Below the pieces are notes generated by a model that saw nothing but the letters and a program-made list of their open reading frames with translations, made no database searches and was not told the DNA's origin. A stretch of 64,000 nucleotides of DNA, taken from assembly GCA_030673875.1 (NCBI GenBank), contig JAUTCT010000027.1:1-64000 (forward strand). Direction: 5' to 3'. The translations under genes were made by a program, and so were the position numbers. Positions 28,262 through 42,980 of this stretch are shown piece by piece. Numbering within the stretch: position 1 is the stretch's first letter; every line of letters begins with the position of its first letter. Origin of the DNA: Verrucomicrobiota bacterium JB025 (lineage in GTDB: Bacteria > Verrucomicrobiota > Verrucomicrobiia > Verrucomicrobiales > Akkermansiaceae).

Positions 28262-29833
28262 TCAGGAGGAGGCTCCGATATCGACGGGCTTGTAGCCGCC
28301 TTTCGAGCGGAAGTAGAGGAGGAGTCCGAGGTAGCAGACGAGCATGAAGGCGGGGAATATGGCCATTTTGCCAAGAGCGCCGAACTGGCCGGCGGTGTTG
28401 GCTGCTTCGAGCGCGGCGATGCCGGTTTCTCCGGTGACGGTTTCGGCTTTTACGGGATCGATGGCCTGATAGTCGCCGAGGAGGTATTCCTTCTCGATGC
28501 TGACGGTCTGGTGGATGGCGGGGGCTTTTTCCATGAGTTCCGCGTTTGCGGTGGATTCCTGGAGGAAGCCGATGAAGGGGAAGCCGAGGATGCCGACTGC
28601 GAGCATGCCGATGCCGCCGACGGCGTTGAGGGTGAGGGCGCCGCCTTTCGGGCATTGTTCCGAGGTGACCGCGAGCATGGTGGGCCAGAAGAAGGTCTTT
28701 CCGAATGCGTAGAGGGTGGCGGCGGCGAAGATCATGATGAGGCCGGAGTGTGCGGTCTTGCTGAGCCAGGTGAGGCCGAGAATGGCGAGGACTGCGGAGC
28801 CGGCGAGCAGTCCGAGCGGGGAGATGCGGTGGACGATCGAACCGGCGAAGAAGCGGAGGATCATCATGATGGTGGAGGTGTAGACGAGGACCCAGCCGGC
28901 GTTGTGCCCGGCTTCCTTCATGGGTTCCTCCATGAGTGAGGAGATCCAGCCGTCGGTGCCGATTTCGGTGGTTGCGAGTGGCATCATGATGACGATGAGG
29001 ACGACGAGAATGATGTGTCCGAAGGAGCGGGTGATCACCGCGAAGCCGATGACGACGGCGGCGATGAGGCCCCAGACGACGGCGGCGGACCATCCGAAGA
29101 CCTGACCGACCTGGGCGATGACGAGTCCGAATCCGACGAGCGCGCCGAATGCGCCGAACTCCCGGAGCATTTCCATGTAGCTGACACCGGCTTCTTCGCG
29201 TTCGTTTCTCGGGAAGGTCTGCGGGGTGAGCATGATCAGGTAGACGACGGCGGGAACCATGATGAGTCCGAGGACGATGCGCCAGTCGCCATTGGCGGCG
29301 ACGTCGGCGAGGGCGATGGTGCAGAGGCCGCCGACGATGAGACCGGCGGGCCATCCCGCGTGGAGGGCGTTGAGCCATTTGGTCTTGTTGTCACGGAAGA
29401 CGGTGGCGACGAGCGGGTTGATGAAGGCCTCGACGGTGCCGTTTCCGAGGGCAAGGATGATGCTGCCCCACATGAGGAGACCGTAGCCTTTTTGCTGGGC
29501 GGCGGCGAGGGCCTCACCTTCGAGGCCCTGGATGGTGGAGTAGGCCATGCACGCGAGGGTGATGTAGATGGCGTAGCAGACGAAGGAGGAGAGCATTGCG
29601 ACCTTGTAGCCGATCTTGTCGATGATCAGGGAGAAGATGATGATGCTGACGCCGAAGGGCCAGACGCCCGCGCCCATGAGTTCGCCGGCTTCGACTTTGG
29701 TGAGTCCGAAGTCCTCGACGAAGCGTCCGCCGCAAAGGTACATGCGGCTGAAGAAGGCGTAGGATGTGGCGATGAGCGCGACGAAACAGCCCCAGAACAG
29801 GGCCTTGTTGGCTGCGGATGGATGGGAACTCAT
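28262..29833 (-). CDS. Major facilitator superfamily transporter
   Basis: 523 residues, about 12-14 hydrophobic helices. MFS-typical loop features include [14 protein letters not shown] between helices 2 and 3. A soluble insert of about 60 residues lies between the last two helices ([20 protein letters not shown] onward), which is unusual for the family. The substrate is not evident. A sugar/nucleoside or organic-acid carrier is most likely. It is transcribed alone, divergently from the ECF sigma gene, and ends with a strong terminator. Confidence 0.85.
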
Positions 29834-29970
29834 GGGTATTTTCAGGATTTCGGGTTTGGTGCCGGGGTTTCTAGCGGGTGCTCTACGACGTGACGAGAAG
29901 AAAGGTTTCGGAGAATTTTGGGGTTTTTTCTAAGGATTTCGGGTGGTTTGTGTCTTGGTAGGTGAAAGGC

Positions 29971-30030
29971 ATGAGAAAGCGCGCGCCGCATCATGAGCTC
30001 CCCAACCCCGAACATACGATCGATGGCTGA
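29971..30030 (+). CDS. Possible 19-residue leader peptide overlapping the sigma factor start
   Basis: ATG at 29971 follows a good ribosome site (AGGTGAAAGG) and reads through 19 codons in another frame, overlapping the first in-frame ATG of the sigma gene (29993) and ending just after a second in-frame ATG (30023). The sigma ATGs themselves lack a Shine-Dalgarno. It could couple translation to the sigma gene. Evidence is only the signal spacing. Confidence 0.25.
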   Translation: MRKRAPHHELPNPEHTIDG

Positions 30031-30574
30031 TGCCGTAGAGAGTCCGGTAGGATGTCTGCCGGGAGGCGACGCCGTGAAACCGGATTTTCGCGAGGTGTTC
30101 GCGGCGGAGGAGTCGCCGCTGCTTCGGTTTGGCTATGGATTGACCGGCCAGCGGGAGACGGCGGAGGACATTGTGCAGGACGCCTTTCTGAAGCTGCACA
30201 CACACTGGGACGACGTGTCGAATCCCCGGGCCTGGTTATTCCGCTGCGTGCGGAATCTGGCGCTCAATCACATCCGCGACACCCGCAAGGAGATCATGAC
30301 TGAGCATGATGATGAATGGGAAAGCCAACAGCCGGAGCCGGATGAGGCAGCCGCGCGGATGGAGGCGGTGGGGACGCTGCGCTTGCTGGTGTCCGAACTG
30401 CAACCGCAGGAGCGGGAGCTGGTTTCCCTGAAATACCACGAAAACCTCAAATACGAGCAGATTGGCGAACGTACGGGGCTGAGTGTCGGCAACGTGGGCT
30501 ACAAGCTGCACCACGTGTTGAAGGGTCTGGCGGACGCGATGAGGCGGATGGGGGTGGATAGTCCGGCGGGCTAG
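29993..30574 (+). CDS. ECF-type RNA polymerase sigma factor
   Basis: 193 residues with sigma region 2 (about 36-100: LLRFGYGLTGQRETAEDIVQ, then NPRAWLFRCVRNLALNHIRD) and sigma region 4 (about 130-185: LQPQERELVSLKYHENLKYEQ, GLSVGNVGYKLHHVLKGL). Regions 1 and 3 are absent, defining it as an extracytoplasmic-function sigma factor. The next gene, 30 bases downstream, begins with an anti-sigma-like segment and a membrane anchor, the usual arrangement for a sigma factor held at the membrane. The start is either 29993 or 30023; a leader peptide with a better ribosome site overlaps both. Confidence 0.9.
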   Translation: MSSPTPNIRSMADAVESPVGCLPGGDAVKPDFREVFAAEESPLLRFGYGLTGQRETAEDIVQDAFLKLHTHWDDVSNPRAWLFRCVRNLALNHIRDTRKEIMTEHDDEWESQQPEPDEAAARMEAVGTLRLLVSELQPQERELVSLKYHENLKYEQIGERTGLSVGNVGYKLHHVLKGLADAMRRMGVDSPAG

Positions 30575-30604
30575 AGACGGGAACCAAGAACCAAGAATCA
30601 AGAG

Positions 30605-33600
30605 ATGAGTGACGAGAGTTCATATACGGCGGTGGGAGACGAGGCGCTTGAAGCGCGGATCGTGGCGTGGGTGCTGGGCGAGGCGTCGGCATTCGAGGCG
30701 GAGGAGTTGGAGAAACTGTGTGTGGAGCGTGAGGAGTTGGGGGTGTTCAAGCGGCGGATCGAGCGGATGCACGGGCTGATGGAGGCGGAGGTGCGGGAAG
30801 GGGCGGATGAGGCGTGGTCGCTGCCGGAGGCGAAGCGGAGCGCGGTGGAGCAGTTGCTGGAGAACGGCGAGGAGAAGGCGCGGGAGAGGAGTGTGCGGAG
30901 GAGCGGGAGAAGGGCGATGGTCGCGATTGCGGCGTGCGTGGTGGTTTCGTTGTTCGGGGTGTGGATGATGCCGAGGGGATACGAGGGCAAGGTGGTGGTG
31001 GAGGTGCGGCCGAGGGCGGGGGGGATGTCACCGCTGGGTGAGGGCATGAGGGATGAGTCCGGACCGATGTCGGCACAGTTTTTCGGCACGGAGTTTGAGA
31101 AGATCAAAAGCCGGGAGAGTTTGGAAAAGGTGGTGGAGAATCTGGATTTGGACGCGCGCTGGGGAGTGGACAAGGAGGATGCGCTCGGGAGGTTGCGCGG
31201 GATCGTCGATGCGCAGAACATCAGGGGGACGGATTTGGTCGAGATCAAGGTGCGCGCAGGGGATAAGGGGGACGCGAAGGAGATCGCGGAGGAGGTGGCG
31301 GAGACGTATGCCGCGTATCGGAGGGAGTGGGAAACCGAGGCATCCAGGCGCTCGCTGGAGGAACTGAAGAAGGCGATCCGGGACCAGGAGGAAAAGGTGG
31401 AGGAGCGGCGGAAGGTGCTTTCGACGATCGTGCGGACGAAGGGCGTGATCCACAAGGGGGAGGATAGGTTTTATGGACGCGGCGGTGAGGGAGAGCAGAG
31501 GGAGGAGACGGTCAAGCGTGGTCTTGACGCGCAGGACTACGTGGATGCGAAGCGGGCCTTTGAGACCGACGTGGCACTGCTGCAGGAAATGAAGATCAAG
31601 CAGATTGCGGAGACCATTTCCTCTGAGACACCGGCGGGCAATGCGGTGATCGTCCATGATTCCTCGGTGGAGGATCGGTCGTTGTTTCAGTGGGCGTTTG
31701 GTGGCAAGGCGGAAGGGACTGTTGCGGAGGCTCCGACGGTCACGACCTACTCGGCTGCGTTAGCGGAACAAGAGGAGAAGGGACAAGACGAGGATGGCGA
31801 GGGCATGGTGGCGCTGAAGACGGAGTTTCCCGCGGAGATGATCGAGGGGACGCCGAAGCCGATGAATGTGCCGGGGTTGGTGGATGAGAGGGATGGTCCG
31901 GTGATTGCGGGGAGGATGCGGTATGGGCGCGGGCAGGAGAAGCAGGATAGCAACTGGAAGGAGTCGTCGAATGGGGTGGTTGTGGGCGGACAGGTGCTCT
32001 CGCCGGGAACTGTCAATTTTGCGGATGGAATGAAGCTGGGAGATGCGGTTGACGGGGCGGGCGGGGCGTCGGATTTCGCTTCGAAGAAGCGGGTGAGGGT
32101 GATGCGTGATGGAGTGCTGAAGCAGTATGATTTGAATTCCAAGGAGGGGCGTGAGCTGCAGTTGCAGGCGGGGGATGTGGTGGAGGTGCCGCAGAAGTCG
32201 GTATTTGGTGATGGTGAGAGATTGCCGGGAAATGAGCGTCTGAGGGGGCGGCCGGAGGCTGCTGTGGATTTCGCGAAAACCGCGCCGGTTCAGAGTGCGC
32301 CTGCGGCTTGGGTGTCCGGCGTTGCTGATCGGGAGAGGTCGGCGGGCAAGTCGTCGTCATCGAGTGAATTGGCTGACGGTGGTGCGGACGAGGGCGGGGT
32401 GGGTGTCGAGACGAGGTATTTCTTCAGCGATGCGGATGGGGGTGTGAAAGCGGTGCCCGAACCCGCGGCGCGGCCTCAGCCGAGGCCGGAGGTGGTTCGG
32501 AAGCCGGTGGTGGCGAGTGGTGGGGTGGCAGCGGATGAGGCTGCGGTGTCGAGTTCCCTGTTTGCGGAAGCGGGCAAGCATGAGTCCAAGCAGAATGTCG
32601 ACGCGTTTGCGGCATCCGATGTGCCGGAGGTGGCGGATGTTCCGATGCTGGGGCGGATGTTCCGCAGCAAGGAGAAGGGGCGCAAGGTGGACGTCAACGG
32701 ACGCGAACGCGAGCTGCCGGATCTGTCGAATGCCGCGACGATGGCGGAGAACCGGACGCGGGTGGATGAGGTGAGGAAGGATCTCTATCTCGCGGAGGGG
32801 AATCTCAAGCTGGGCAAGCTGGATGTGGCGAAGCGGAAGTATGAGGACGCGCTCGGGGTGGATCCGGGCAATCTGGCGGCGAGGCGAGGCTTGGAGAAAC
32901 TGGCGAAGCAGGAGGCGGCGTCTTATCGGGCGGCGTATGATTCCACGCGTGCCGAGTTGTTGGCGGAGGTGGATGCGGCATGGGAGTTGAAGGTTCCGGC
33001 GGAGGTTGTGGAGTTTGAAGGATTCATCAATTACGGTGCTCCGATTGATGGTGTGGCGGGCAAGGACGGGGTTGATGCGGACGCCTTCAACGCAAACGCG
33101 ACTGACGGGGACGACTGGAGTGGCGTGATTCGCGACAAACTGGAGGCCGACTTGGAGGTGGTGGATGGAGAAGTGGAGAAGTTGGCGGAGCAGGCGGAGC
33201 TGGAGAACCGACCGGCGGTAACGCCCGCGAGGAAGTCGGTGGTGTTTGAGGAGGAGAACTCGGCGGCGGAGGAACCCTATTCGACTTTCTCGCTCAACAT
33301 CAGCGACGCGTCGTTCCAGGTGGCGCAGGCGGCGCTGGCGCGGGGTGAGCAGCCTGATCCGGCGGGGATCAAGGTGGAGCAGTTTTACAATGGGGTGGAC
33401 TACGGGGATCCGGGTCCGGTGGGTGAGGAGCCGGTGGCGGTGACGATCGAGCAGGCGGCGCACCCGGTGGTGCCGGGGCGCAATCTGGTGCGGGTGGCGG
33501 TGAAGACGGCGGCGGCGGGCCGGGGCGAAGGGCAGCCGCTGCGGCTGACGCTGCTGGTGGACCAGAGCGGATCGATGGCGCGCGAGGACCGGCGCGGGGC

Positions 33601-34570
33601 GATGGATGAGGCGCTGGGCGGACTGGCGGAGTTGCTGACGGAGAACGACCGGGTATCGGTGATCGGGTTTTCCCGCAGGGCGCGGCTGCTGGCGGAGGCG
33701 ATGGGCGGGGAGAAGGCGGACGGGCTGGCGGAGTTGGTGAACCAGGGGGCGGCGGAGGGTGGCACGAATCTGGAGGAGGCGATCGGGCTGGCCGAGGAGA
33801 TCGCACTGCGCGGGATGCAGGCTGGCGCGCAGAACCGGATCGTGCTGTTCACGGACGGGGCGGCGAATTTGGGGGACGCGGATCCGGAGCGACTCGCGGA
33901 GAAGGTGAAGGAACTGCGGCAGAAGGGGCTGGCGCTGGACATCGCGGGGATCGCGGCAGACGACCTGAATGACGATTTATTAGCCGAGCTGGCGAGGCAT
34001 GGAAACGGGCGGTATTACGTGGTCGGCAAGGCCGGCAAGGGCGGGGAGGCGGAGCTGGCGAAGAAGCTGGCGGGCGCGTTCCGGCCGGCGGCGGAGAACG
34101 TGAAGGTGCAGGTGAGGTTCAATCCGGAGCGGGTGGGGCGCTACAAGTTGATCGGGTTTGAGAAGGACCGGTTGCAGAAGGAGGACTTCCGGAATGATGC
34201 GGTGGATGCGGCGGAAATGGCGGCGGAGGAGGCCGGGGTGGCGATCTATCAGGTGGAGCCGCTGGCGGAGGGAAGCGGGGAGATTGGCGAGGTGAGCGTG
34301 CGATTCCGTGATGTGGCGAGCGGTGAGATGGTGGAGCGGAGCTGGACGGTTCCGCATGACGAGATGGCTCCGGCGATTGACCGGGCGTCGCCCTCGATGC
34401 AGTTGGCGGTGCTGGCGATGCTGGCGGGTGAGAAGCTGCGTGGCGGGCCGTTGGGCGAGGCGGTGGACTTCGGGGAGTTCACGGATGTGAAGGCGAAGGT
34501 GCGCGAGTTTTACGGCAGTTCCGGCCGGGTGGCCGAGGTGCTGGAGATGGTGGAGGCGCTGAGGAAGTGA
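30605..34570 (+). CDS. Mosaic membrane protein: anti-sigma-like head, Wzz-like, SLBB-like, secretin-like, TPR and VWA domains
   Basis: 1321 residues. In order: a cytoplasmic head (1-100; IVAWVLGEASAFEAEELEKL resembles anti-sigma heads but lacks zinc ligands); one transmembrane helix (105-123); a Wzz-like periplasmic region with coiled coil (about 158-285; EFEKIKSRESLEKVVENLDL); an SLBB-like domain (458-531; VGGQVLSPGTVNF, ending AGDVVEVPQ); a Pro/Ala linker; a secretin-like motif (675-690; ADVPMLGRMFR); a TPR (727-769); then a VWA module preceded by its N-associated region (from about 888) and followed by a DUF3520-like tail as in YfbK. The MIDAS is intact: Asp986, Ser988, Ser990, Thr1054, Asp1084. 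It probably holds the sigma factor and reads an envelope signal through the VWA domain. The domain boundaries are my reading by eye. Confidence 0.8.
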   Translation: MSDESSYTAVGDEALEARIVAWVLGEASAFEAEELEKLCVEREELGVFKRRIERMHGLMEAEVREGADEAWSLPEAKRSAVEQLLENGEEKARERSVRRSGRRAMVAIAACVVVSLFGVWMMPRGYEGKVVVEVRPRAGGMSPLGEGMRDESGPMSAQFFGTEFEKIKSRESLEKVVENLDLDARWGVDKEDALGRLRGIVDAQNIRGTDLVEIKVRAGDKGDAKEIAEEVAETYAAYRREWETEASRRSLEELKKAIRDQEEKVEERRKVLSTIVRTKGVIHKGEDRFYGRGGEGEQREETVKRGLDAQDYVDAKRAFETDVALLQEMKIKQIAETISSETPAGNAVIVHDSSVEDRSLFQWAFGGKAEGTVAEAPTVTTYSAALAEQEEKGQDEDGEGMVALKTEFPAEMIEGTPKPMNVPGLVDERDGPVIAGRMRYGRGQEKQDSNWKESSNGVVVGGQVLSPGTVNFADGMKLGDAVDGAGGASDFASKKRVRVMRDGVLKQYDLNSKEGRELQLQAGDVVEVPQKSVFGDGERLPGNERLRGRPEAAVDFAKTAPVQSAPAAWVSGVADRERSAGKSSSSSELADGGADEGGVGVETRYFFSDADGGVKAVPEPAARPQPRPEVVRKPVVASGGVAADEAAVSSSLFAEAGKHESKQNVDAFAASDVPEVADVPMLGRMFRSKEKGRKVDVNGRERELPDLSNAATMAENRTRVDEVRKDLYLAEGNLKLGKLDVAKRKYEDALGVDPGNLAARRGLEKLAKQEAASYRAAYDSTRAELLAEVDAAWELKVPAEVVEFEGFINYGAPIDGVAGKDGVDADAFNANATDGDDWSGVIRDKLEADLEVVDGEVEKLAEQAELENRPAVTPARKSVVFEEENSAAEEPYSTFSLNISDASFQVAQAALARGEQPDPAGIKVEQFYNGVDYGDPGPVGEEPVAVTIEQAAHPVVPGRNLVRVAVKTAAAGRGEGQPLRLTLLVDQSGSMAREDRRGAMDEALGGLAELLTENDRVSVIGFSRRARLLAEAMGGEKADGLAELVNQGAAEGGTNLEEAIGLAEEIALRGMQAGAQNRIVLFTDGAANLGDADPERLAEKVKELRQKGLALDIAGIAADDLNDDLLAELARHGNGRYYVVGKAGKGGEAELAKKLAGAFRPAAENVKVQVRFNPERVGRYKLIGFEKDRLQKEDFRNDAVDAAEMAAEEAGVAIYQVEPLAEGSGEIGEVSVRFRDVASGEMVERSWTVPHDEMAPAIDRASPSMQLAVLAMLAGEKLRGGPLGEAVDFGEFTDVKAKVREFYGSSGRVAEVLEMVEALRK

Positions 34571-34635
34571 TGATTTGATATTTTACGTTGGGTTTACGGA
34601 ACTGGTGAAACAATTGAGATAGAAAGAGCAAAGTG

Positions 34636-37600
34636 ATGAAGACTGCGAAGCTTGTGATGATTTTGGGTTTGTTGTTGATGGTGTTTGCGCCGGCACAGGA
34701 GGTGGCGCAGGACGAGCGACTGGTGCTGGTACCGTGGAAGGCGGCGCGGACGGATGCGCCGTTGTTTTTCTCCGCGACTGCGGAGGTGGACGTGCGGGTG
34801 GGACTGGAAGAGGTGACGGGCGAGCAGCGGATTTCATTCATGGTGCACCAGGGGAAGGCGGAGGAGCTGAGTCTCGAGCTCTCGGGGCCGGGTGAGGTGA
34901 CGGAGGTGAGCGGCAAGGGGCTGAAGGACTGGTCGGTGCGGATGACGGACGGCAAGCGGTTTTTGGATCTGAGGCCGGCGGTAAAAAGCGGCAGGCTGCC
35001 GCGGACGCTGGAGGTTTCCGTGAAGACGAGGTTGGAGAACGAGGGCGGGATGGTGGGCATTTTGCTGCCCGGGGCGGGACGGGCGACCGGGTTTGCGGTG
35101 AAGGTCGCGGTGCAGCCCGACAAGGGGGTGGACCTGAAGGTGCTGGAGGCGGCGGGGCTGGCGAAGGTGGAGGATGGCGAATGGGCGTATGTGGGCGGCG
35201 GCAGCGTGCTGCCGAAACTGGTGGTGGGAGCGGCTGCGGCGGGTGTGGATTCGCGCGGGCTGGAGCTGGCGGGCGCGGTGTTGGAGGGGAATGTGGCAGA
35301 GGACGGGAAGAGTGTGTCGTTCGTGCTGAAGGGGGTGGCGAGGTCGGCTGGCGAGGGGTCGAGGATTGAGTTGTTAGGCGGTGGAGCGGCGCTGGCGGAT
35401 GGGGTTGCCGGGGAGGACTGGCATGTGGAGCTGAAGAAACGGGGCAAGGAATGGGTGTATGAACTGGTGGCGGATTTCTTCGGGGATCTGCCGGTGGAGG
35501 TGGGCTTTGAGGTGGCGGTGCAACGGCAGGGTGACTGGAGCGGATTGTCGTTCCGGGTGCCGGGTGGGGTGGTGGTGCCGGTGACGGTGAGGGGGCTGGA
35601 CAAGGGGGTCTCGTTTGACGCGAAGCGTGCGGTGGTGCCGCAGCATGTGAAGGGGGCGTGGATGGGGTTTTTACCGGCGAACGGGCAGGCTGAGATGGCC
35701 TGGCGGGAGGTGGACAAGGTGGCGGATGGATCGTTGTTTTTCTCCAGCACGGCGACGAGCGACGTGCGGGTGGGGAGTGGATTGCTGAGGCAGCAGACGG
35801 TGATGGACCTGCGGGTGCTGCAGGGGAAACTGGCGGAGCTGACGATCAAACTGGACGGTCCGGGCGAGGTGCTTTCGGTGGCCGGCGAGCCGGTGCTGGG
35901 GTGGGTGGTGCGGGAGACCGATGGGGTGCGTGAGCTGGATGTGAAGCTGAGCCGGCCGATCGAGGGTGCTGGGCGGATCCGGATCGAGGCGCAGGCGGCG
36001 TTGGGAGGATTTCCGGTGAAGGCGGAGGCGTTGCGGATGTCTCCGGTGGGGGCGTTGCGGCACAGCGGGTATCTGCGGATCGCGAACCACGGTGCGGTGC
36101 GGGTCGAGGTGGGTGGGGCGAAGGGGTTGATCCAGTTGGCGCCGGAGCAGTTTCCGGGTGGGGTGGACGAGAGTTTGAGGCAGGTGTTTGTGTATCGTTT
36201 TCCCTCGGCGGAATACGGGTATTCGGTGGATGCGAGCCAGGTGCTGCCGGAGGTGGGTGTGACGGAGGTGACGGTTTATGAGATGTCGGAGACCGACATG
36301 CGGATCGCGGCGGATCTGGAGCTGGACATCAGGGAGGCACCGCTGCGCGAGTGGGAGCTGATGATACCGGCGGACCATGCGGTGGCGGCGGTGAGTTCGG
36401 CGGCGGTGGCGGACTATTCGGTGGGTGAGGAAACCGAGGATGGGCTGAGGCGGCTGAAGGTGATATTCGGCAATCCGGTGTCGGGCCGGCAGTTGGTGAA
36501 GTTGCGGTTGGAGAAGAACGAGGCGGCGAAGGCGGGGGCGTGGCAACTGACGCCGCTGGGGTTTCCGAAGGTGAAGAGCCGGAGGGGCTATGTGGGTGCG
36601 GTGGCGGCGGCGGGGTATCGGCTGGTGGTCGGCAAGACGGCCGGGCTGGCGGAGGTGCCGCTGACGTTTTTCCCGAAGAAGACGCAGGGGTTGCAGCAGG
36701 CGTTCCGGTTGCGTGATGACAAGTGGTCGGCGGGCTTGGTGGCGGAGGCGCTGGGGCAGAGTGTGGAGGCGGATGTGTTTCACCTCTATTCGCTGAAGTC
36801 CGGGGCGGTGTATGGGAGTGTGCTGATGAATTTCTTTGTGGTGGGTGCGCCGGCGACGGAGTGGCGGGTGGAGGTGCCGGAGGGGATCGGCAACATCGAT
36901 GTGACGGGGCAGAATGTGGGGCGTGACTGGCGGCGGGACGGGAATGTGGTGATCGTGCCGCTGTCGAGCCCGGTGCTGGGAGCGGGGACCTTGTTGTTAA
37001 CCTTCGAGCAGCCGATGAACTCGATGGGGGGGACGTTTTCGCCGGGTGAGGTGAAGCCGCTGGGGGTGCAGGGCGAGCGCGGGTATGTGCAGGTGGTGAG
37101 TCCGCTGCAGGTGAAGCATGAGTCGACGAGCGAGGGCGGTCTGCTGGAGATCGATGCGAGTGAGTTGCCGACGGAGTTTCGCCTGTTGACGAGTGCGCCG
37201 ACCTTGCGGGCGTGGCAGTATACGGCGCGGGAGTTTGCGATCGAGATGAACGTCGAGTGGTTTGAGCCGGGTGAAACGGTGGGCCAGGTGGTGGATTTCC
37301 AGAAGCTGTCGACGCGGCTTTCGCGGGACGGCCAGTGGGTGACGGAGGCGCGGGTGTTTGTGAAGTCGCGCGGTCGGAGTGTGTTGCGGACGGTGTTTCC
37401 GGAGGGTGCGGTGCTGTGGGAGGCGAAGGTGGACGGGAAGGCGGTGAACGCACGCAAGGATGCGGGCGAGACGCTGGTGCCGCTGCCGTCGCGGGTGGAT
37501 CCGAACCAGGCGGTGGAGGTGGTGCTGCGCTATGGGGCGAAGGCGGACAGTGCGCGGCGTGCGAAGCTGGTGGCGCCGGTGATTGACGCGCCGGTGGTGA

Positions 37601-40600
37601 TCGGCGAGTGGACGGTGAGCGGTGATGAGGGGCGGCAGTTGGTGCCGAAGGGCGGGACGGCGGATTTGGTGCGGCCGGTGCTGGCGGAGACGGGTTGGGA
37701 GTGGCTGGCCGGGAAACGGCGCGGGGCGGGCTTGTTGTTTGTGGTGGGGCTGGCGGCGGTGCTGCTGGCGTGGCGGTGTGAGTCGGTGTTGCGGCGCGGT
37801 TTCGCGATTGGCGCGGGCGCGGGATTCGTGGTGCTGGCGCTCGGGCTGGCAGTGGCGGCGGCCAGTGGCGGCCGGGGCCATGCGGAGGTGCTGGAGTATG
37901 CGGCGCCGGTGGTGGCGGCAGGTGGCGAGGTGTCGGTGGTGGTGGCGAATGTGCCGCAGTGGGCGGCGGGCACGAATGCGGGCGTTTGGCTCGGCGGGTT
38001 GGCCGGGCTGGGGCTGGCGGCGTGGGGTGTGGTGAAGCGGCAGCGGATGTTCACGGGTGCGGGTGTGGCGCTGTTGGCTGCGGCGGTCCTGTTCGTGCAC
38101 GGCGGGGCGGCGTGGTTTTTCGTGGTGTTGGCGCTGATTGGGTTTGTTTGCGTGCTGCCGGAGGTGTTCAAGCTGGCGCTTCGGTTGAAGAAGAAGCCGG
38201 TGGCGGCCCCGGTGGGGACGGCGGTGGTGATGCTGTCCTGCCTGCTGACGATGGGTGGGACGGGTGCGGAGCTGGCGGAGTCGATGATTCACGATTGGGA
38301 AATCCGCGACGGGCGTCTGCACGGCACGGTGGAGGTGACGGTGCGCGGGGAAACCGGCGAGCGGTTTTTGCTTTTGCGTGATCCGGCGGTGTTGAGTGAT
38401 TTTGCGGGTGACGGGTTGCGGGTGGTGAAGTCACCGGCGGGCGAGGCGACGGCCTATTGGCTGGAGGCGGAGGTGGCCGGGCGGTTGACGGGCAGGGCGA
38501 CGTTTGAGATGCCGCTGGCGGATCCGCTGAAAGGGTGGCACATGCCGTCCGGGCAGGCGGCGATGCAGAAGGTGCGGGTGCGCTGGGACGAGGCCGGCTG
38601 GGAGTTCGTGTGTCCGGCGGCGGCGAAGGTCGATGAGCTGGCAGGCACGGGCAAGGCCGGGAGCGGTGCGTCGATGGTGATCGGTCCGGTGGAGCATGTG
38701 ATGATCCGGGCGAGGGCGAAGCAACGCGACGTGACGGGTGAGGAGACGAAGTTTTACGCCGAGGTATCCAACCTGTATCTGCCGGGGCCGGGGGTGGTGA
38801 ACGGACGCCACCAGGTGAGGATTCGTCCGTCGCAAGGACGGGTGACGAGTTTGCGGATGCGGGTGCCGGACGGGTTTACGGTGAGTGATGTGCTGGACGG
38901 GCCGGTGGGGTCGTGGCGGTTCGACCCGGAAGGGCGCGAGCTGCGGATGACCGTGGAGCCGGCGCAGACGAAGGGGTTTGGATTCGTGATCGAGACGCAG
39001 CGTGGGGCCGGCGAGCTGCCGGTGGATTTGGCGCTGGGTGCGCTGCGTGTCGAGGGCAGTGCGGGCGAGGTGGGCTTGCTGGGGTTGGCGTTTGGAAATG
39101 ACGTGCAGCCGGAGTCGGTGGCGGTGGAGGGGATGACGCGGGTGAATCCGGAGGATTTCGGGAACGGTCTGCTGCCGGTTTCCGCGAAGGGGCGGGCACT
39201 GGCGGTGCTGCAACACGCGTTCCGCTATGGGGCGGAGGATGTAACGGCGAAGGTGCGTGTTTCGGAGGTGGCGCCGGAGTTGCGGGCGGAGATTTCCCAG
39301 TTGGTGTCACTGGGTGAGGATCGTCTGGTGGTGGCGGCGGATCTCAGGGTGAACATCACGAGGTCCGGGGTGTTCCGGCTGGATGTGGAGGTTCCCGCGG
39401 GTTTGGAAATCGAGAGTGCGACGGGTGAGGGGCTGAGCCATTGGGCGGAGGTGAGCGAGGACGGCAAGCGGGTGCTGGTATTGCATCTGGCGGGCAAGAC
39501 GATGGGGTTGAGGAACTTCAACCTGACGCTGGCGGGGCGCCCGACCGGGACGCAGAAGAAGTGGACGGTTCCGCGGATGACGGTTCGTGGTGCGTCGCGG
39601 GAGACGGGGGTGCTGACGATTGTGCCGGAGCGCGGGCTGCAGGTGCGTGCGGTCGAGCGCAACAAGGTGTCGCAGCTGGATCCGCGGGAGCTGGCGGATG
39701 CGGGGAAACAACAGGCGCGGGCGGCGGTGAAACCGGGTGCGCTGGCGTATCGCTTGTTGCAGGGGGATTGGTCGCTGGGGCTGGCGATCAGCCGGCTGGA
39801 TCCGTGGGTGACGGCGCGGGTGTTTCACGACGCGACGATTCGCGAGGGGCAGTTGCTCTCGCGGGTGAACATCAGCTACAAGATCGAGAATGCGGCGGTG
39901 AAGACGCTGCGGGTGCGGATACCGGGGCTGGACGAGTCGTCGGCGGCGACGGTGCGGGCGACGGGTGCCGCCGTGGCGGACCTGGTGCCGGTGGCGGGCG
40001 AGGACGGTCTATACGAGATCCGTTTCCAGCGGGGGCTGGCGGGAAGCTCGAGTGTGGATCTCGAGTATCAGCGGGCGGGTGCCGACGGCGGGACGGAGAA
40101 GGTCGAGCCGGTGGCGCTGGAGGATGTACGACAGCTGTCGTATTTCGTGGCGGTGCGTGCGGGCGGCCGGCTGGAGCTGGAGGAGGGCGAGGTGCCGCGC
40201 GGCTGGAGGCGGGCTGACTGGGCGGTGTTGAAGTCCAACCTGGGGAGCGTGGCCGGCGGGGTGACGCCGAATCTCTCGTATCGGGTGGCGGATGCGGGTG
40301 AGCCGCTGCAGGTGGTGCTGAAGCGGCACGAGCTGGCGGCGCTGAGGAAGATGAGGGTTTCCGAGGGGAGCCTGACTACGCTGCTTTCGCCGAACGGCGG
40401 GGCGCTGACCGCGGTGGACCTGAAGATGGAGGTGGTGGCGAAGAGCACGCTGCGGCTGAGGCTGCCGAAGGGGGCGGAGCTGTTCAACGTGCGGGTGAAT
40501 GGCGAGGGCACGGTGTTGGTGCGGGAGGGTGACGAGTGGTTGTTCCATGTGTTTCCGGCGACTGACGCGGACGAGCCCTCGAATGTCGGGTTTGTGTATT

Positions 40601-41406
40601 CGGCTCCGCTTGGCAAGCGAGGCAGTCTGGTGGGTCCGCTGATGGATGTGCCGATGGAGAACCTGAGCTGGCGGGTGCTGGTTCCGGAGGGCTGGACGAG
40701 CACGGGGCACGACGGGGATTTCGACCTGCTGGGTGAGGAGGCGAAGGGCGGGTTCGGCTTGCAGGATTATCTTTCGCTCTCCGTGCTGAAGAGCCGCAGT
40801 GACAAGAAGAATGCGGTCGAGCTGCTGGACAAGGCGAACAAGTACATGCTGGCGGGCGACCAGGAGAAGGCGAGCAAGGCGTTCAGCAATGCGGTGAACA
40901 ACGGGTTTCTGGATGCGGCATCGGGTGAGGACGCGCGGGTGCAGCTGCGGCAGTTGAAGACCCAGCAGGCGGTGCTCGGGCTGAACACGCGGCGCCAGAA
41001 GATCGAGCTGGACAACCGGATCGAGGCCACATCGTTCGGCCAGCAGGCACAGATCGAGCAGGCGGCGAACGTGAATCCGGTTTTCCAGGGGAGATACAAC
41101 TATGACCCGCAGCAGTTCGACCGTTTCCTGGCGGGCAACACGGCGGATGAGAACGCGGCGCTGAAGGAGGTGGCGAACCGGATTGTGGCGCAGCAGCTTG
41201 CGGCGGAACCGGCGGCAGCGGCGCTGGATGTGACGCTGCCGGAGCGGGGGACGGTGCTGACGTTCGGGCGGAGCGTGCAGGGTGAGGTGGGCCGTCCGAT
41301 GGAGATCCGGCTGAAGCTGAGGCGTGCGAACGGCGGATTTGCGGCGGTGGCGCTGGCGTTGTGCGCGCTGGTGGGGGCGATGGCGGCGGTGACGCGGAAG
41401 AAGTGA
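34636..41406 (+). CDS. Giant envelope protein: two homologous beta-rich arms around a transmembrane hub
   Basis: 2256 residues. A signal peptide (LVMILGLLLMVFAPAQ) starts it. The N-terminal arm (about 25-1020) is beta-rich. A cluster of about six hydrophobic helices lies at 1030-1212. A second beta-rich arm (about 1215-2080), a helical Gln/Asn-rich stretch (2080-2200) and a C-terminal helix with a basic end (2234-2256, AAVTRKK) follow. Internal repeats are clear: an 80-residue unit at 40-120 and again at 364-445 (LFFSATAEVDVRVG / LFFSSTATSDVRVG), and a module pair at about 556 and 687-795 that recurs at about 1565 and 1703-1815 (FRLRDDKWSAGL / YRLLQGDWSLGL). It follows the VWA gene by 65 bases, with an AAAGAG ribosome site. 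No enzyme domain is seen. A cell-surface or inter-membrane structural role under the upstream sigma factor is inferred. Confidence 0.8.
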   Translation: MKTAKLVMILGLLLMVFAPAQEVAQDERLVLVPWKAARTDAPLFFSATAEVDVRVGLEEVTGEQRISFMVHQGKAEELSLELSGPGEVTEVSGKGLKDWSVRMTDGKRFLDLRPAVKSGRLPRTLEVSVKTRLENEGGMVGILLPGAGRATGFAVKVAVQPDKGVDLKVLEAAGLAKVEDGEWAYVGGGSVLPKLVVGAAAAGVDSRGLELAGAVLEGNVAEDGKSVSFVLKGVARSAGEGSRIELLGGGAALADGVAGEDWHVELKKRGKEWVYELVADFFGDLPVEVGFEVAVQRQGDWSGLSFRVPGGVVVPVTVRGLDKGVSFDAKRAVVPQHVKGAWMGFLPANGQAEMAWREVDKVADGSLFFSSTATSDVRVGSGLLRQQTVMDLRVLQGKLAELTIKLDGPGEVLSVAGEPVLGWVVRETDGVRELDVKLSRPIEGAGRIRIEAQAALGGFPVKAEALRMSPVGALRHSGYLRIANHGAVRVEVGGAKGLIQLAPEQFPGGVDESLRQVFVYRFPSAEYGYSVDASQVLPEVGVTEVTVYEMSETDMRIAADLELDIREAPLREWELMIPADHAVAAVSSAAVADYSVGEETEDGLRRLKVIFGNPVSGRQLVKLRLEKNEAAKAGAWQLTPLGFPKVKSRRGYVGAVAAAGYRLVVGKTAGLAEVPLTFFPKKTQGLQQAFRLRDDKWSAGLVAEALGQSVEADVFHLYSLKSGAVYGSVLMNFFVVGAPATEWRVEVPEGIGNIDVTGQNVGRDWRRDGNVVIVPLSSPVLGAGTLLLTFEQPMNSMGGTFSPGEVKPLGVQGERGYVQVVSPLQVKHESTSEGGLLEIDASELPTEFRLLTSAPTLRAWQYTAREFAIEMNVEWFEPGETVGQVVDFQKLSTRLSRDGQWVTEARVFVKSRGRSVLRTVFPEGAVLWEAKVDGKAVNARKDAGETLVPLPSRVDPNQAVEVVLRYGAKADSARRAKLVAPVIDAPVVIGEWTVSGDEGRQLVPKGGTADLVRPVLAETGWEWLAGKRRGAGLLFVVGLAAVLLAWRCESVLRRGFAIGAGAGFVVLALGLAVAAASGGRGHAEVLEYAAPVVAAGGEVSVVVANVPQWAAGTNAGVWLGGLAGLGLAAWGVVKRQRMFTGAGVALLAAAVLFVHGGAAWFFVVLALIGFVCVLPEVFKLALRLKKKPVAAPVGTAVVMLSCLLTMGGTGAELAESMIHDWEIRDGRLHGTVEVTVRGETGERFLLLRDPAVLSDFAGDGLRVVKSPAGEATAYWLEAEVAGRLTGRATFEMPLADPLKGWHMPSGQAAMQKVRVRWDEAGWEFVCPAAAKVDELAGTGKAGSGASMVIGPVEHVMIRARAKQRDVTGEETKFYAEVSNLYLPGPGVVNGRHQVRIRPSQGRVTSLRMRVPDGFTVSDVLDGPVGSWRFDPEGRELRMTVEPAQTKGFGFVIETQRGAGELPVDLALGALRVEGSAGEVGLLGLAFGNDVQPESVAVEGMTRVNPEDFGNGLLPVSAKGRALAVLQHAFRYGAEDVTAKVRVSEVAPELRAEISQLVSLGEDRLVVAADLRVNITRSGVFRLDVEVPAGLEIESATGEGLSHWAEVSEDGKRVLVLHLAGKTMGLRNFNLTLAGRPTGTQKKWTVPRMTVRGASRETGVLTIVPERGLQVRAVERNKVSQLDPRELADAGKQQARAAVKPGALAYRLLQGDWSLGLAISRLDPWVTARVFHDATIREGQLLSRVNISYKIENAAVKTLRVRIPGLDESSAATVRATGAAVADLVPVAGEDGLYEIRFQRGLAGSSSVDLEYQRAGADGGTEKVEPVALEDVRQLSYFVAVRAGGRLELEEGEVPRGWRRADWAVLKSNLGSVAGGVTPNLSYRVADAGEPLQVVLKRHELAALRKMRVSEGSLTTLLSPNGGALTAVDLKMEVVAKSTLRLRLPKGAELFNVRVNGEGTVLVREGDEWLFHVFPATDADEPSNVGFVYSAPLGKRGSLVGPLMDVPMENLSWRVLVPEGWTSTGHDGDFDLLGEEAKGGFGLQDYLSLSVLKSRSDKKNAVELLDKANKYMLAGDQEKASKAFSNAVNNGFLDAASGEDARVQLRQLKTQQAVLGLNTRRQKIELDNRIEATSFGQQAQIEQAANVNPVFQGRYNYDPQQFDRFLAGNTADENAALKEVANRIVAQQLAAEPAAAALDVTLPERGTVLTFGRSVQGEVGRPMEIRLKLRRANGGFAAVALALCALVGAMAAVTRKK

Positions 41407-41467
41407 TGCTCCGGGCGGCGGCGGTGGCGGCCATGGGATGACCGGGGTCGCCGCCGGGCAGTGCCGG

Positions 41468-41617
41468 TTATGGTTTGGCCGGGGTTTCCGCTGTGGCGGG
41501 GGCTTCGTCGGTGCGGGAGAATTCGGAGGTGGAGCTGAGGTAGAAGAGGACGGCGCCTCCTCCGATGACGAGGGTCAGGATGAAGAGGGAACCGAGCAAT
41601 CCGAGGCACGAGCGCAT
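41468..41617 (-). CDS. Small single-helix membrane protein
   Basis: 49 residues: a short basic start, one hydrophobic helix (LLGSLFILTLVIGGGAVLFY) and an acidic/Pro-rich tail (TDEAPATAETPAKP). Too short for similarity by eye. The clean helix plus charged ends support a real gene; otherwise it would be a chance frame. It is divergent from the U32 gene, 94 bases away. Confidence 0.5.
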   Translation of the reverse strand: MRSCLGLLGSLFILTLVIGGGAVLFYLSSTSEFSRTDEAPATAETPAKP

Positions 41618-41711
41618 GATGTGAGGCTAGGCGGCGGACGGCTGGTGGGGCGAGCGGAAAATGCGCAGGATGCGGGCTTGCGCGGGGCGATGAGATGCCG
41701 ATGGTGAGGGC

Positions 41712-42980
41712 ATGAAGTCACCTGAATTGCTTGCTCCGGCAGGATCGATCGAACACATGCGCGCGGCGTATGCGTATGGGGCGGACGCGGTTTACGCCGG
41801 GTTGCCGCGTTACAGTTTGCGGGTTCGGAACAATGCGTTCCGGAACGTGGAGGCGCTGGGTGAGGGGATTTCCGAGGCGCACGCGCAGGGCAAGACGTTT
41901 TTCGTGGTGAGCAACCTGCTGCCCCACAACATGAAGGTGAACTCGTTCCTGAAGGACATGAAGCCGGTGGTGGATTTGAAGCCGGACGCGCTGATCATGG
42001 CGGATCCTGGGTTGATCGATCTGGCGCGCAACGCGTGGCCGGAGATGCCGATTCATCTGTCGGTGCAGGCGAACACGCTGAATTGGGCGGCGGTGAAGTT
42101 TTGGAACAAGCTCGGGGTTTCACGGATCATTCTTTCGCGCGAGTTGTCGCTGGATGAGATTGCCGAGATCCGGCAGATGTGTCCGGAGGTTGAGCTTGAG
42201 GTGTTTGTGCACGGTGCGTTGTGCATTGCGTATTCCGGGCGCTGCCTGTTGTCGGGATATTTCACGAGGCGGGACGGCAACCAGGGGGCGTGCACGAATT
42301 CGTGCCGGTGGAAGTACAAGCTGCACGAGGGTGGCGGGACGAAGGTGGCGGAGGATGACGATCCGTTTTTGATCGAGGAGAAGGAGCGTCCGGGCGAGTT
42401 CATGCCGATCGAGGAGGACGAGCACGGGACGTATATCATGAACTCCAAGGATCTGCGGGCGGCGGAGCACGTGCCGCGGTTGATGGAGATCGGGATTGAC
42501 TCGCTGAAGATCGAGGGCCGGACGAAGAGTGCCTACTATGTGGCGCGTAGTTGCCAGGCCTACCGGCGGGTGATCGACAATGCGGCGGCGGGCAGGGAGT
42601 TCGATCCGGCGGTGATGGCGGATCTGGAGGGGCTGGCGAACCGCGGGTATACGGGCGGATTCTTCCAGCGGCACCCGAGTTCGGACTACCAGAACTACGA
42701 GGACAGCCATTCGTCACCCGGGAGCGGCCGCTACGCCGCGAAAGCGCTGGGCTGGGATGCCGGGCGGGGGTTGATGGAGGTGCAGGTGAAGAACCGTTTC
42801 GACAAGGGGGACGTGATCGAGATCGTGAGGCCGGGCGGCAACGAGCGGCAGGTGGTGGAGGTGATGCAGGACCGCGAGGGTGCGGAGATCGAGGTGGCGC
42901 CCGGGGACCCGCATCACGTGTGGATCGACCTGCCGGAGGATGCGGCGGGGGCGTTTGTGGCGCGGGTGAACAAGGCGTGA
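41712..42980 (+). CDS. U32-family peptidase-like protein (TrhP/YegQ type)
   Basis: 422 residues. It starts SPELLAPAGS as U32 proteins do. The Cys-rich core is SGRCLLSGYFTRRDGNQGAC with a second pair of cysteines just after (NSCRWKY), the Fe-S/tRNA-hydroxylation signature of TrhP (YegQ) rather than a true collagenase. In E. coli TrhP supports prephenate-dependent 5-hydroxyuridine formation in tRNA. TrhP is shorter at the C-terminus than the YhbU type, matching this length. Collagenase activity, once proposed for the family, is unlikely. It stands alone, followed by REP-like repeats. Confidence 0.88.
   Translation: MKSPELLAPAGSIEHMRAAYAYGADAVYAGLPRYSLRVRNNAFRNVEALGEGISEAHAQGKTFFVVSNLLPHNMKVNSFLKDMKPVVDLKPDALIMADPGLIDLARNAWPEMPIHLSVQANTLNWAAVKFWNKLGVSRIILSRELSLDEIAEIRQMCPEVELEVFVHGALCIAYSGRCLLSGYFTRRDGNQGACTNSCRWKYKLHEGGGTKVAEDDDPFLIEEKERPGEFMPIEEDEHGTYIMNSKDLRAAEHVPRLMEIGIDSLKIEGRTKSAYYVARSCQAYRRVIDNAAAGREFDPAVMADLEGLANRGYTGGFFQRHPSSDYQNYEDSHSSPGSGRYAAKALGWDAGRGLMEVQVKNRFDKGDVIEIVRPGGNERQVVEVMQDREGAEIEVAPGDPHHVWIDLPEDAAGAFVARVNKA

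Follow-up and report, generated by a model that had tools for sequence, protein, structure and literature searches.

What is the role of an operon in which an extracytoplasmic function (ECF) sigma factor gene is followed by genes for a membrane protein ending in a VWA domain and for a giant exported protein? We considered this question for a locus of Verrucomicrobiota bacterium JB025 (GenBank assembly GCA_030673875.1), where the three genes lie within positions 1 to 64,000 of the forward strand of contig JAUTCT010000027.1; these 64,000 nucleotides (nt) are termed the window. A sequence-only reading had noted Wzz-, SLBB- and secretin-like pieces between an anti-sigma-like head and the VWA domain of the second protein, and had proposed that the unit builds or monitors an envelope structure and regulates its own expression. 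We find that the region between the head and the VWA core, termed the middle, is a shuffled, in-frame mosaic of fragments of envelope genes. The own-genome source of many of these fragments, through several origins or repeated overwriting, is firmly established. In the labels used here, G000 is the genome of the window, other G numbers are the genomes of relatives, and L numbers are loci.

In the window protein, the middle begins with two captured Wzz pieces. The N-terminal piece pairs with the Wzz of the same genome in a phylogenetic tree (support 98/94), and the C-terminal piece is 66-67% identical to the own Wzz and 69% identical to the Wzz of G016. The own-genome donor is an open reading frame (ORF) of the Wzz-kinase type with Pfam Wzz, GNVR and AAA_31 domains. 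Of the full Wzz architecture, in which a periplasmic part is flanked by two transmembrane (TM) segments and accompanied by a kinase, only model positions 44-225 and 348-405 are present, with no TM2 and no kinase. The SLBB piece (Pfam, 8.8e-8) is 43% identical to an ORF with Poly_export and SLBB domains that lies beside the Wzz gene on contig C105. Further downstream are pieces matching NCBIfam NF042912, the Amuc_1098 type IV pilus outer-membrane family, with the best stretch at residues 705-800. They are 61-65% identical to an 885-amino-acid (aa) secretin of the same genome (G000:C89; 65% to the own protein versus 64% to the next best), and at 114 bits, against a curated cut-off of 750, they represent a fragment and not a full-length family member. 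Weak NCBIfam matches also link residues 102-287 to a Wzz-like family and residues 453-530 to an SLBB exporter family. The model region of a secretin-signature-like peptide in this protein (about 560-600) recurs in other loci, and a weak match of residues 307-428 to G000:C81, a lipoprotein-like ORF, contains a short motif common to both.

The middle was then compared among relatives. A profile search of named genomes gave 110 relatives, the best 80 of which are the 80 loci used in our counts. VWA-relative ORFs in these loci were listed with Wzz-only matches accepted up to 1e-6, and middles were measured in the 55 open frames that carry both head and core. Complete VWA proteins of sampled relatives range from 760 to 1821 aa with head and core conserved, and the 55 middles from 209 to 1240 aa (median 540). 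Among reduced forms, the 529-aa protein of G010 has lost most of the VWA domain and the 472-aa protein of G017 shows the head only. Scanning the 55 middles with all NCBIfam models identified Amuc_1098 in 36, Wzz-like families in at most five, autotransporter repeats in four, TonB-receptor in three and BamA in one, and a Pfam scan detected TPR, PATR and secretin domains. Wzz pieces are found in 18 of the 55 middles. Middles free of pieces occur in six head-to-core VWA genes with Opitutaceae or Opitutia titles (L221, L222, L223, L227, L229 and L246) and in Rhodopirellula L234; a short secretin match is present in a metagenome-assembled genome (MAG) of Opitutae (L219) and in a cut Rariglobus locus (L209). 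None of the four genomes behind L234, L246, L229 and L221 has an Amuc_1098 gene above the cut-off, versus all 14 genomes checked in the order to which the window belongs.

The pieces are frequently rearranged. Their order is permuted relative to the donor at 31 adjacent pairs in 20 of the 55 loci, and in L214 Wzz model positions 216-406 precede positions 49-215, a clean circular permutation of the periplasmic domain. The region of the secretin signature (about model position 580) recurs in 17 pieces. All 26 Wzz pieces fall within model positions 36-412, a confinement whose chance would be about 1e-12 if the pieces were independent and uniform. As the hydrophobic segments of the donors map to about positions 28-46 and 419-437, one Wzz piece starts inside TM1 and none of the 26 reaches TM2 or the kinase. 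The Wzz, SLBB and secretin-like pieces of the sequence-only reading are therefore real, but they are not fixed domains of the system, because their presence, order and boundaries differ even between close relatives.

Two pairs of strains were compared more closely. Between G002b and G024, whose core DNA is 96.8% identical, 300 nt stand in place of a 1.1-kb block comprising one secretin piece and roughly two thirds of a Wzz piece. The non-synonymous and synonymous rates (dN/dS) of G002b and G012 are 0.051/0.177 (about 0.29) in the middle and 0.008/0.129 (0.06) in the core, and those of the Wzz part between G002b and G024 are 0.099/0.475. Judged from these two pairs, most of the middle is under purifying selection.

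To trace the origin of the fragments, pieces of at least 45 aa were compared with candidate donors. Among 16 Wzz pieces, 12 have the own donor, or one identical to it, as their best or joint-best match, eight of these 12 coming from the closely related G002, G012 and G024. The same is true of the own donor for seven of the 11 secretin pieces for which it is known (the set includes no own donor for the secretin piece of G032). For example, identity to the own donor is 64% in G009, versus 53% for the next best, and 60-76% in the G002 clade, versus at most 54%. In the isolate Roseibacillus persicicus (L245), residues 676-740 and 749-1033 of the VWA protein are 69 and 66% identical to the own Wzz, and at most 38% to sequences of the other seven genomes searched; this assignment to the own donor is based on search scores and not on a tree.

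The same origin is supported by a maximum-likelihood tree in which 10 rows of captured Wzz sequence were placed with 12 donors. D_G002 represents the donors D_G012 and D_G024, which are 99-100% identical to it over the pieces, and the G012 pieces were set aside. The tree contains six changes between captured and donor labels, all forced by starred branches, and if a captured piece never reverts to a full Wzz gene, these changes correspond to six origins or overwritings. Own groupings are starred for G000 (98/94), G009 (100/100) and the G002 clade (100/100). Weaker own pairings were obtained for G001 (91/74), G004 (89/66) and G019 (89/47); the rows of G001, G004 and G002a_C are less than half filled, and G004 lies on a long branch. 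The secretin tree, from which donors D_G012 and D_G024 and pieces G012, G002a_464 and G004_435 were set aside, has starred own pairings for G002b, G004 (with G005) and G018, with five of its eight captured rows on long branches. A single clade of captured pieces is rejected for Wzz (p-AU 1.9e-65) and for secretin (p-AU 0.003). The opposite direction of transfer, with the VWA gene as donor and Wzz as recipient, was also rejected. Three Wzz donors were checked, and all are full-length proteins matching Pfam Wzz, GNVR and AAA_31 (the Wzz match in one and the GNVR matches in two lying below the Pfam cut-off). In addition, the terminal branches of captured rows are longer than those of the donors with which they pair. 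No fresh gene-conversion tract was seen in 11 piece-donor pairs. Their DNA identity is 66-80% and their longest exact match is 12-29 nt, so the events of capture or overwriting are not fresh.

The window ORFs, together with Pfam and NCBIfam assignments, bear out the tandem trio on one strand. The intergenic gaps are 30 nt and 62 or 65 nt, as the giant ORF can start at a GTG (34633, giving 2257 aa) or at the ATG of the next codon (34636, giving 2256 aa). Across positions 29500-42200, one sigma-70-type promoter was predicted versus 1.2 expected and seven terminator-like sites versus 7.1 expected, none above chance. Rfam and tRNA searches found no features in the window. In 55 of 57 named loci with a head, the sigma gene lies directly 5′ of it, and in the other two the head begins within 243 nt of a contig end, so that the homologues are not scattered without the sigma factor. 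Sigma and head genes overlap by 4 nt in six loci, and no violation of the order was seen. The VWA core is located 5′ of the giant gene in 68 of the 80 loci. In 11 of the remaining 12, a contig end coincides with the start of the giant or is no more than about 200 nt away from it, and in L220 the last residues of the VWA core directly precede the giant, with apparently unrelated sequence upstream. The named loci carry Verrucomicrobiota titles that include Luteolibacter, Haloferula, Rubritalea, Roseibacillus and Opitutaceae, and three have Planctomycete titles, one being Rhodopirellula maiorica. The gene order recurs both here and in the genomes of relatives, where the operon survey accepted matches up to 1e-8. 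The three-gene operon is real and old. A conserved neighbour gene was rejected, as no flanking family recurs in more than six loci among 61 with more than 1 kb of downstream sequence and 49 with upstream sequence.

The giant protein is not always present. It was found in 19 of 39 relatives, with weak or partial matches in G013, G027, G028 and G033. When 193 genomes were sampled across the phylum, 32 contained it at an E-value of 1e-20. No match was found in 17 listed genomes of one sister genus or in the head-bearing genomes G001, G005, G010, G014 and G017. The gene after the VWA gene in G001 and G014 encodes a protein of some 240 aa that contains a 'QGHGPDIG' motif. In G005, the VWA protein itself ends in a fused domain of similar type, in which the motif occurs twice. 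This protein or domain takes the place of the giant (L066:794-1516, L067:6681-7409 and the end of L068:8662-11622); the L067 protein has no Pfam match.

The giant of the window has no match above curated cut-offs in Pfam or NCBIfam, no convincing relative among PDB sequences, and arm profiles that find nothing below E 0.05 in PDB sequences. Hydropathy, compared among giants of at least 2150 aa with an intact 3′ end, places segments at residues 1-19, 772-790, several between 1031 and 1208, and 2235-2253, in agreement with the central membrane helices described previously. The arms on either side of the central segments (residues 20-1030 and 1205-2257) are homologous (hhalign 6.6e-40, 747 columns, 22% identity), which identifies the giant as an internal duplication. 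Distant relatives occur in pairs in two other genomes (L298, L299), as ORFs with lengths of about 1170-1470 aa and matches to the profiles of the arms. In L299:2169-10309 (G027), two one-armed relatives adjoin, one of them with secretin N-domain pieces in tandem at its end. Apart from one weak match of 143 residues, the genome of the window contains no second copy of the giant.

The 193-aa protein contains Sigma70_r2 (residues 40-99, 1.9e-14) and Sigma70_r4_2 (residues 129-177, 2.3e-10) as its only sigma70 regions, the composition that defines ECF factors. Upstream of its gene is a promoter-like motif. The dyad CTAA-N16-GTGT is present in 25 of 55 regions upstream of sigma genes and in none of three shuffled sets, and a relaxed, degenerate form is present in 29 of 56 regions compared with a mean of 0.04 (at most 1) in 50 shuffled sets; the regions are related to one another, and the shuffles leave this shared ancestry uncontrolled. 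Of the 29 relaxed sites, which include some Opitutaceae-type loci, 27 are located 51 to 65 nt before the sigma start as called. The motif is present before the sigma genes of L206 Haloferula sp. and L254 Luteolibacter pohnpeiensis, and was not found before that of Roseibacillus persicicus (L245). In the genome of the window, the only exact copy of the site is the one upstream of this operon. Of four further sites with one mismatch, one lies 7 nt upstream of a 2049-aa ORF (contig C136), and this ORF also contains a secretin-signature piece. The conserved motif suggests that the unit regulates its own expression, as proposed earlier, and the sigma factor may recognize this candidate promoter. 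An out-of-frame ATG 22 nt before the sigma ATG (window 29971-30030) recurs in many loci, and the frame that it opens mostly has 19 codons, stops at the same place and overlaps the sigma gene. Codon-position variation in 13 loci did not support this small frame as coding.

The VWA protein has one strong hydropathy segment. Its C-terminal core matches YfbK_C (6.3e-23), VWA (9.3e-14) and vWF_A (8.3e-11), and with a DQSGS metal-site motif at residues 986-990 it has the domains and the DxSxS signature of YfbK-type proteins. The head contains a segment that is well conserved in an alignment of 41 sequences and reads as helical. The anti-sigma-like character noted in the sequence-only reading is plausible, although family models give few and weak matches and none in the head of the window protein. 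NF052375, PRK13920 and Pfam zf-HC2 each match one of the 41 heads, and NF052375 matches four of 16 longer proteins of relatives (2.9e-5 to 3.2e-4). Co-evolution of sigma and head gives a weak signal: with core and giant controlled for, their partial Mantel correlation is 0.21, a value reached in 9 of 999 permutations. For sigma and the N-terminal part of the giant the correlation is 0.16 (40 of 999).

Table 1. Features of the operon and of the mosaic protein, in window coordinates.
Feature	Position	Strand	Basis
Candidate autoregulatory ECF promoter CTAAGG-N15-TGTCTT	29930..29956	+	36 nt before sigma start; conserved dyad
ECF sigma factor, 193 aa	29993..30574	+	Pfam Sigma70_r2, r4_2; NCBIfam sigma70-ECF
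Head-TM-VWA protein, 1321 aa	30605..34570	+	ORF
Cytoplasmic head, plausibly anti-sigma-like, residues 1-103	30605..30913	+	Conserved in 41 aligned sequences
Single transmembrane segment, residues 104-122	30914..30970	+	Hydropathy
Captured Wzz piece, N-terminal periplasmic part, residues 119-298 (model 44-225)	30959..31498	+	61-63% to own Wzz
Captured Wzz piece, C-terminal part, residues 297-355 (model 348-405)	31493..31669	+	Own Wzz match
Short motif common to lipoprotein-like ORF with F5/8 type C domain, residues 404-425	31814..31879	+	Weak match
Captured SLBB piece, residues 456-536	31970..32212	+	Pfam SLBB
Secretin-signature-like peptide ...DVPMLGRMFRS..., residues 670-693	32612..32683	+	Weak GspD match, E 0.081
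Captured Amuc_1098-type secretin pieces, residues 705-817	32717..33055	+	NCBIfam NF042912, 4.3e-33
vWF_A-VWA-YfbK_C core, residues 885-1321	33257..34570	+	Pfam; conserved
Giant membrane protein; two homologous arms, central and C-terminal hydrophobic segments	34633..41406	+	hhalign, hydropathy; no family

We tentatively propose, with not quite even confidence, that the operon encodes a sigma/anti-sigma monitor of the envelope with the giant as periplasmic partner and with self-derived baits in the sensor. The head of the VWA protein would hold the sigma factor in the cytoplasm, and the periplasmic YfbK-type VWA domain probably binds the giant, two-armed, membrane-anchored partner. Between them, the hypervariable region, rebuilt repeatedly and in frame from the pilus secretin, Wzz and SLBB exporter of the same genome, may supply baits or reporters that dock to partners or quality-control proteases of those machines. 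Failed or absent assembly of a machine would change the VWA-giant state and free the sigma factor, which would then transcribe its own operon anew. Of the two functions offered by the sequence-only reading, monitoring is thus the better half, and building is without direct support. An extension that we consider unlikely is that the sensor samples its own genome, in that recombination with working envelope genes would, over evolutionary time, copy segments of the resident pilus and capsule machines, and of others of the outer membrane, into the anti-sigma protein and keep the bait matched to those machines while they evolve.

Several observations weigh against this proposal. By our own Wzz and secretin profiles, 38 of the 55 middles hold a piece of either kind and 17 hold neither, and G006 and G016 have good donors yet carry no piece; the fragments are consequently not needed for the system to exist. 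Four of 16 Wzz pieces are not closest to the own donor (both G004 pieces, one G000 piece, with 67% to the own and 69% to the G016 protein, and the G019 piece, with 70% to the own protein and 71% to that of sister G006), and neither are four of 11 secretin pieces (two of G002a, one of G019 and one of G021). The front of the middle is less constrained than the rest (G002b/G024 dN/dS 0.028/0.042, 0.67). Secretin pieces are also present in other large proteins of these genomes, so that the VWA protein is not the only mosaic among several envelope proteins, although tree placement covered its pieces alone. With regard to regulation, the head of the window protein matches no anti-sigma family, the matches in relatives being few and weak, and no solved structure is close to it. 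Sigma has a higher partial correlation with the core (0.41, a value reached in 0 of 999 permutations) than with the head, so that co-evolution does not single out the head. A large regulon sharing the promoter motif was rejected, as sites with at most one mismatch number five in the genome versus 10 for a backward control.

On function, the strong rival is that the middle is a periplasmic tether of a certain reach, into which any soluble coil or repeat can be taken up neutrally. This would accommodate the range of lengths from 209 to 1240 aa, the TPR repeats among the matches, the weakly constrained front of one middle and the relatives without detectable pieces, and Wzz pieces are coils. Neutral uptake does not readily explain why one pilus secretin family accounts for 36 of 55 middles when the next best accounts for five, why 17 pieces include the secretin-signature region, which is no obvious spacer, or why most of the G002b/G012 middle is under purifying selection, and we regard a mere spacer as somewhat unlikely. 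Still less can be said for a display of pilus and capsule fragments as phage decoys or as a sensor of phage attack. Pili and exported polysaccharide are common phage receptors, but the Wzz pieces come from inner-membrane periplasmic parts and not from the surface, and we judge this idea very improbable.

A separate issue is how the mosaic arises, and here concerted evolution is compatible with baits as well as with a spacer. An old mosaic, gained once or a few times, might have been overwritten by gene conversion with the resident Wzz and secretin genes. L245 and L211, one of the G002 copies, have their Wzz stretches in the same permuted arrangement, cut at nearly the same places (model 331-408 then 80-344, and 327-407 then 48-345), and L245 is nonetheless 66-69% identical to its own Wzz, as overwriting would predict. 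We regard this history as somewhat unlikely, given the different Wzz stretches found in different lineages (44-225 with 348-405, 157-407, 164-396, 48-345), some lineages having none, and the failure of a search for recent conversion tracts in the 11 pairs with exact matches of 12-29 nt. Chimeric metagenome contigs, by comparison, are a negligible prospect and were rejected. It is true that most loci are MAGs, that the G002 bin holds two different copies and that the upstream side of the L220 MAG contig looks chimeric. Nevertheless, pieces are present in records not titled as MAGs, namely L245 Roseibacillus persicicus, L206 Haloferula sp., L233 Luteolibacter marinus, L254 Luteolibacter pohnpeiensis and L264 Haloferula rosea, and in the single-contig genome G004, and all 55 middles come from open frames with head and core.

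The proposed monitor resembles RpoE/RseA-type systems, in which an ECF sigma factor and a class I anti-sigma protein form a two-gene unit, the second protein having one TM segment and an N-terminal cytoplasmic head, with a promoter-like motif before the sigma gene. RseA also reports outer-membrane protein folding. Unlike that type, the present system includes a third gene, for the giant, and its membrane protein has a very long periplasmic part in which a VWA core follows a shuffled middle of self-derived pieces. According to PMC7406223, the domains to which class I anti-sigma domains are fused are, as a rule, well conserved among members of one group; the variable middle of this locus contrasts with this description. 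The protein shares vWF_A, VWA and YfbK_C, above curated Pfam cut-offs, with YfbK-type VWA proteins, and differs from them in its fusion to a head, a TM segment and a mosaic middle and in its location beside an ECF sigma gene. According to another report, periplasm-spanning, motor-driven force transducers of the inner membrane have a C-terminal vWA fold resembling YfbK (PMC12204202). An inner-membrane helix, a long periplasmic linker and a C-terminal vWA domain are common to both, a likeness of layout only; as described there, the transducers have a helix with a conserved SHLS motif and a predicted motor box, whereas here a cytoplasmic head is encoded beside an ECF sigma gene. The pilE/pilS and vlsE cassette systems, in which gene conversion generates surface variation, likewise rewrite one expressed locus from elsewhere in the genome. 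They differ in that our donors are full-length genes of other functions instead of silent cassettes, the recipient is sensor-like and no recent tract was found. ECF factors and a giant gene of Rhodopirellula baltica are reported in the text available from PMC2754498, which does not include this operon, and none of the open-access titles and abstract openings listed in literature searches is about it.

In several lineages, one region of a putative membrane sensor has been rebuilt repeatedly with the same small set of host envelope genes as its source; the joins are in frame and the order is frequently permuted. This suggests that the sensor consists partly of fragments of the machinery that it would monitor. 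If the fragments serve as baits, the locus would represent a novel route to constructing and updating a sensor of envelope stress, and self-sampling, if true, would amount to heritable updating of a stress sensor with self-sequence. If they do not, it remains a remarkable example from nature either of domain capture that is both recurrent and biased or of concerted evolution. The giant partner, whose two arms are homologous and which belongs to no known family, is itself spread over much of the phylum.

Several minor observations concern related proteins and the surroundings of the operon. A second family of giant proteins (1531-2423 aa as read), with an internal secretin piece at roughly model positions 165-490, occurs in several genomes of the genus (L269:3641-10528 on G000:C24, L271, L273 and L274). 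A 1069-aa ORF (L272:4577-7786, G009:C4) has four tandem copies of secretin N-domains (about model 240-495) and no barrel match. Short Wzz pieces are found in other YfbK-type VWA proteins with a different head, on G000:C97 (L184:2906-5299) and in L305:5584-8455, and the gene for the one in Roseibacillus persicicus is likewise preceded by an ECF sigma gene. In the G018 operon, an extra ORF with Wzz pieces (L217:7770-8834) is inserted between the VWA and giant genes, and a similar one is present in G019. The neighbours of the operon in the window encode a major facilitator superfamily (MFS) transporter (28262-29833) and a U32 peptidase (41712-42980).

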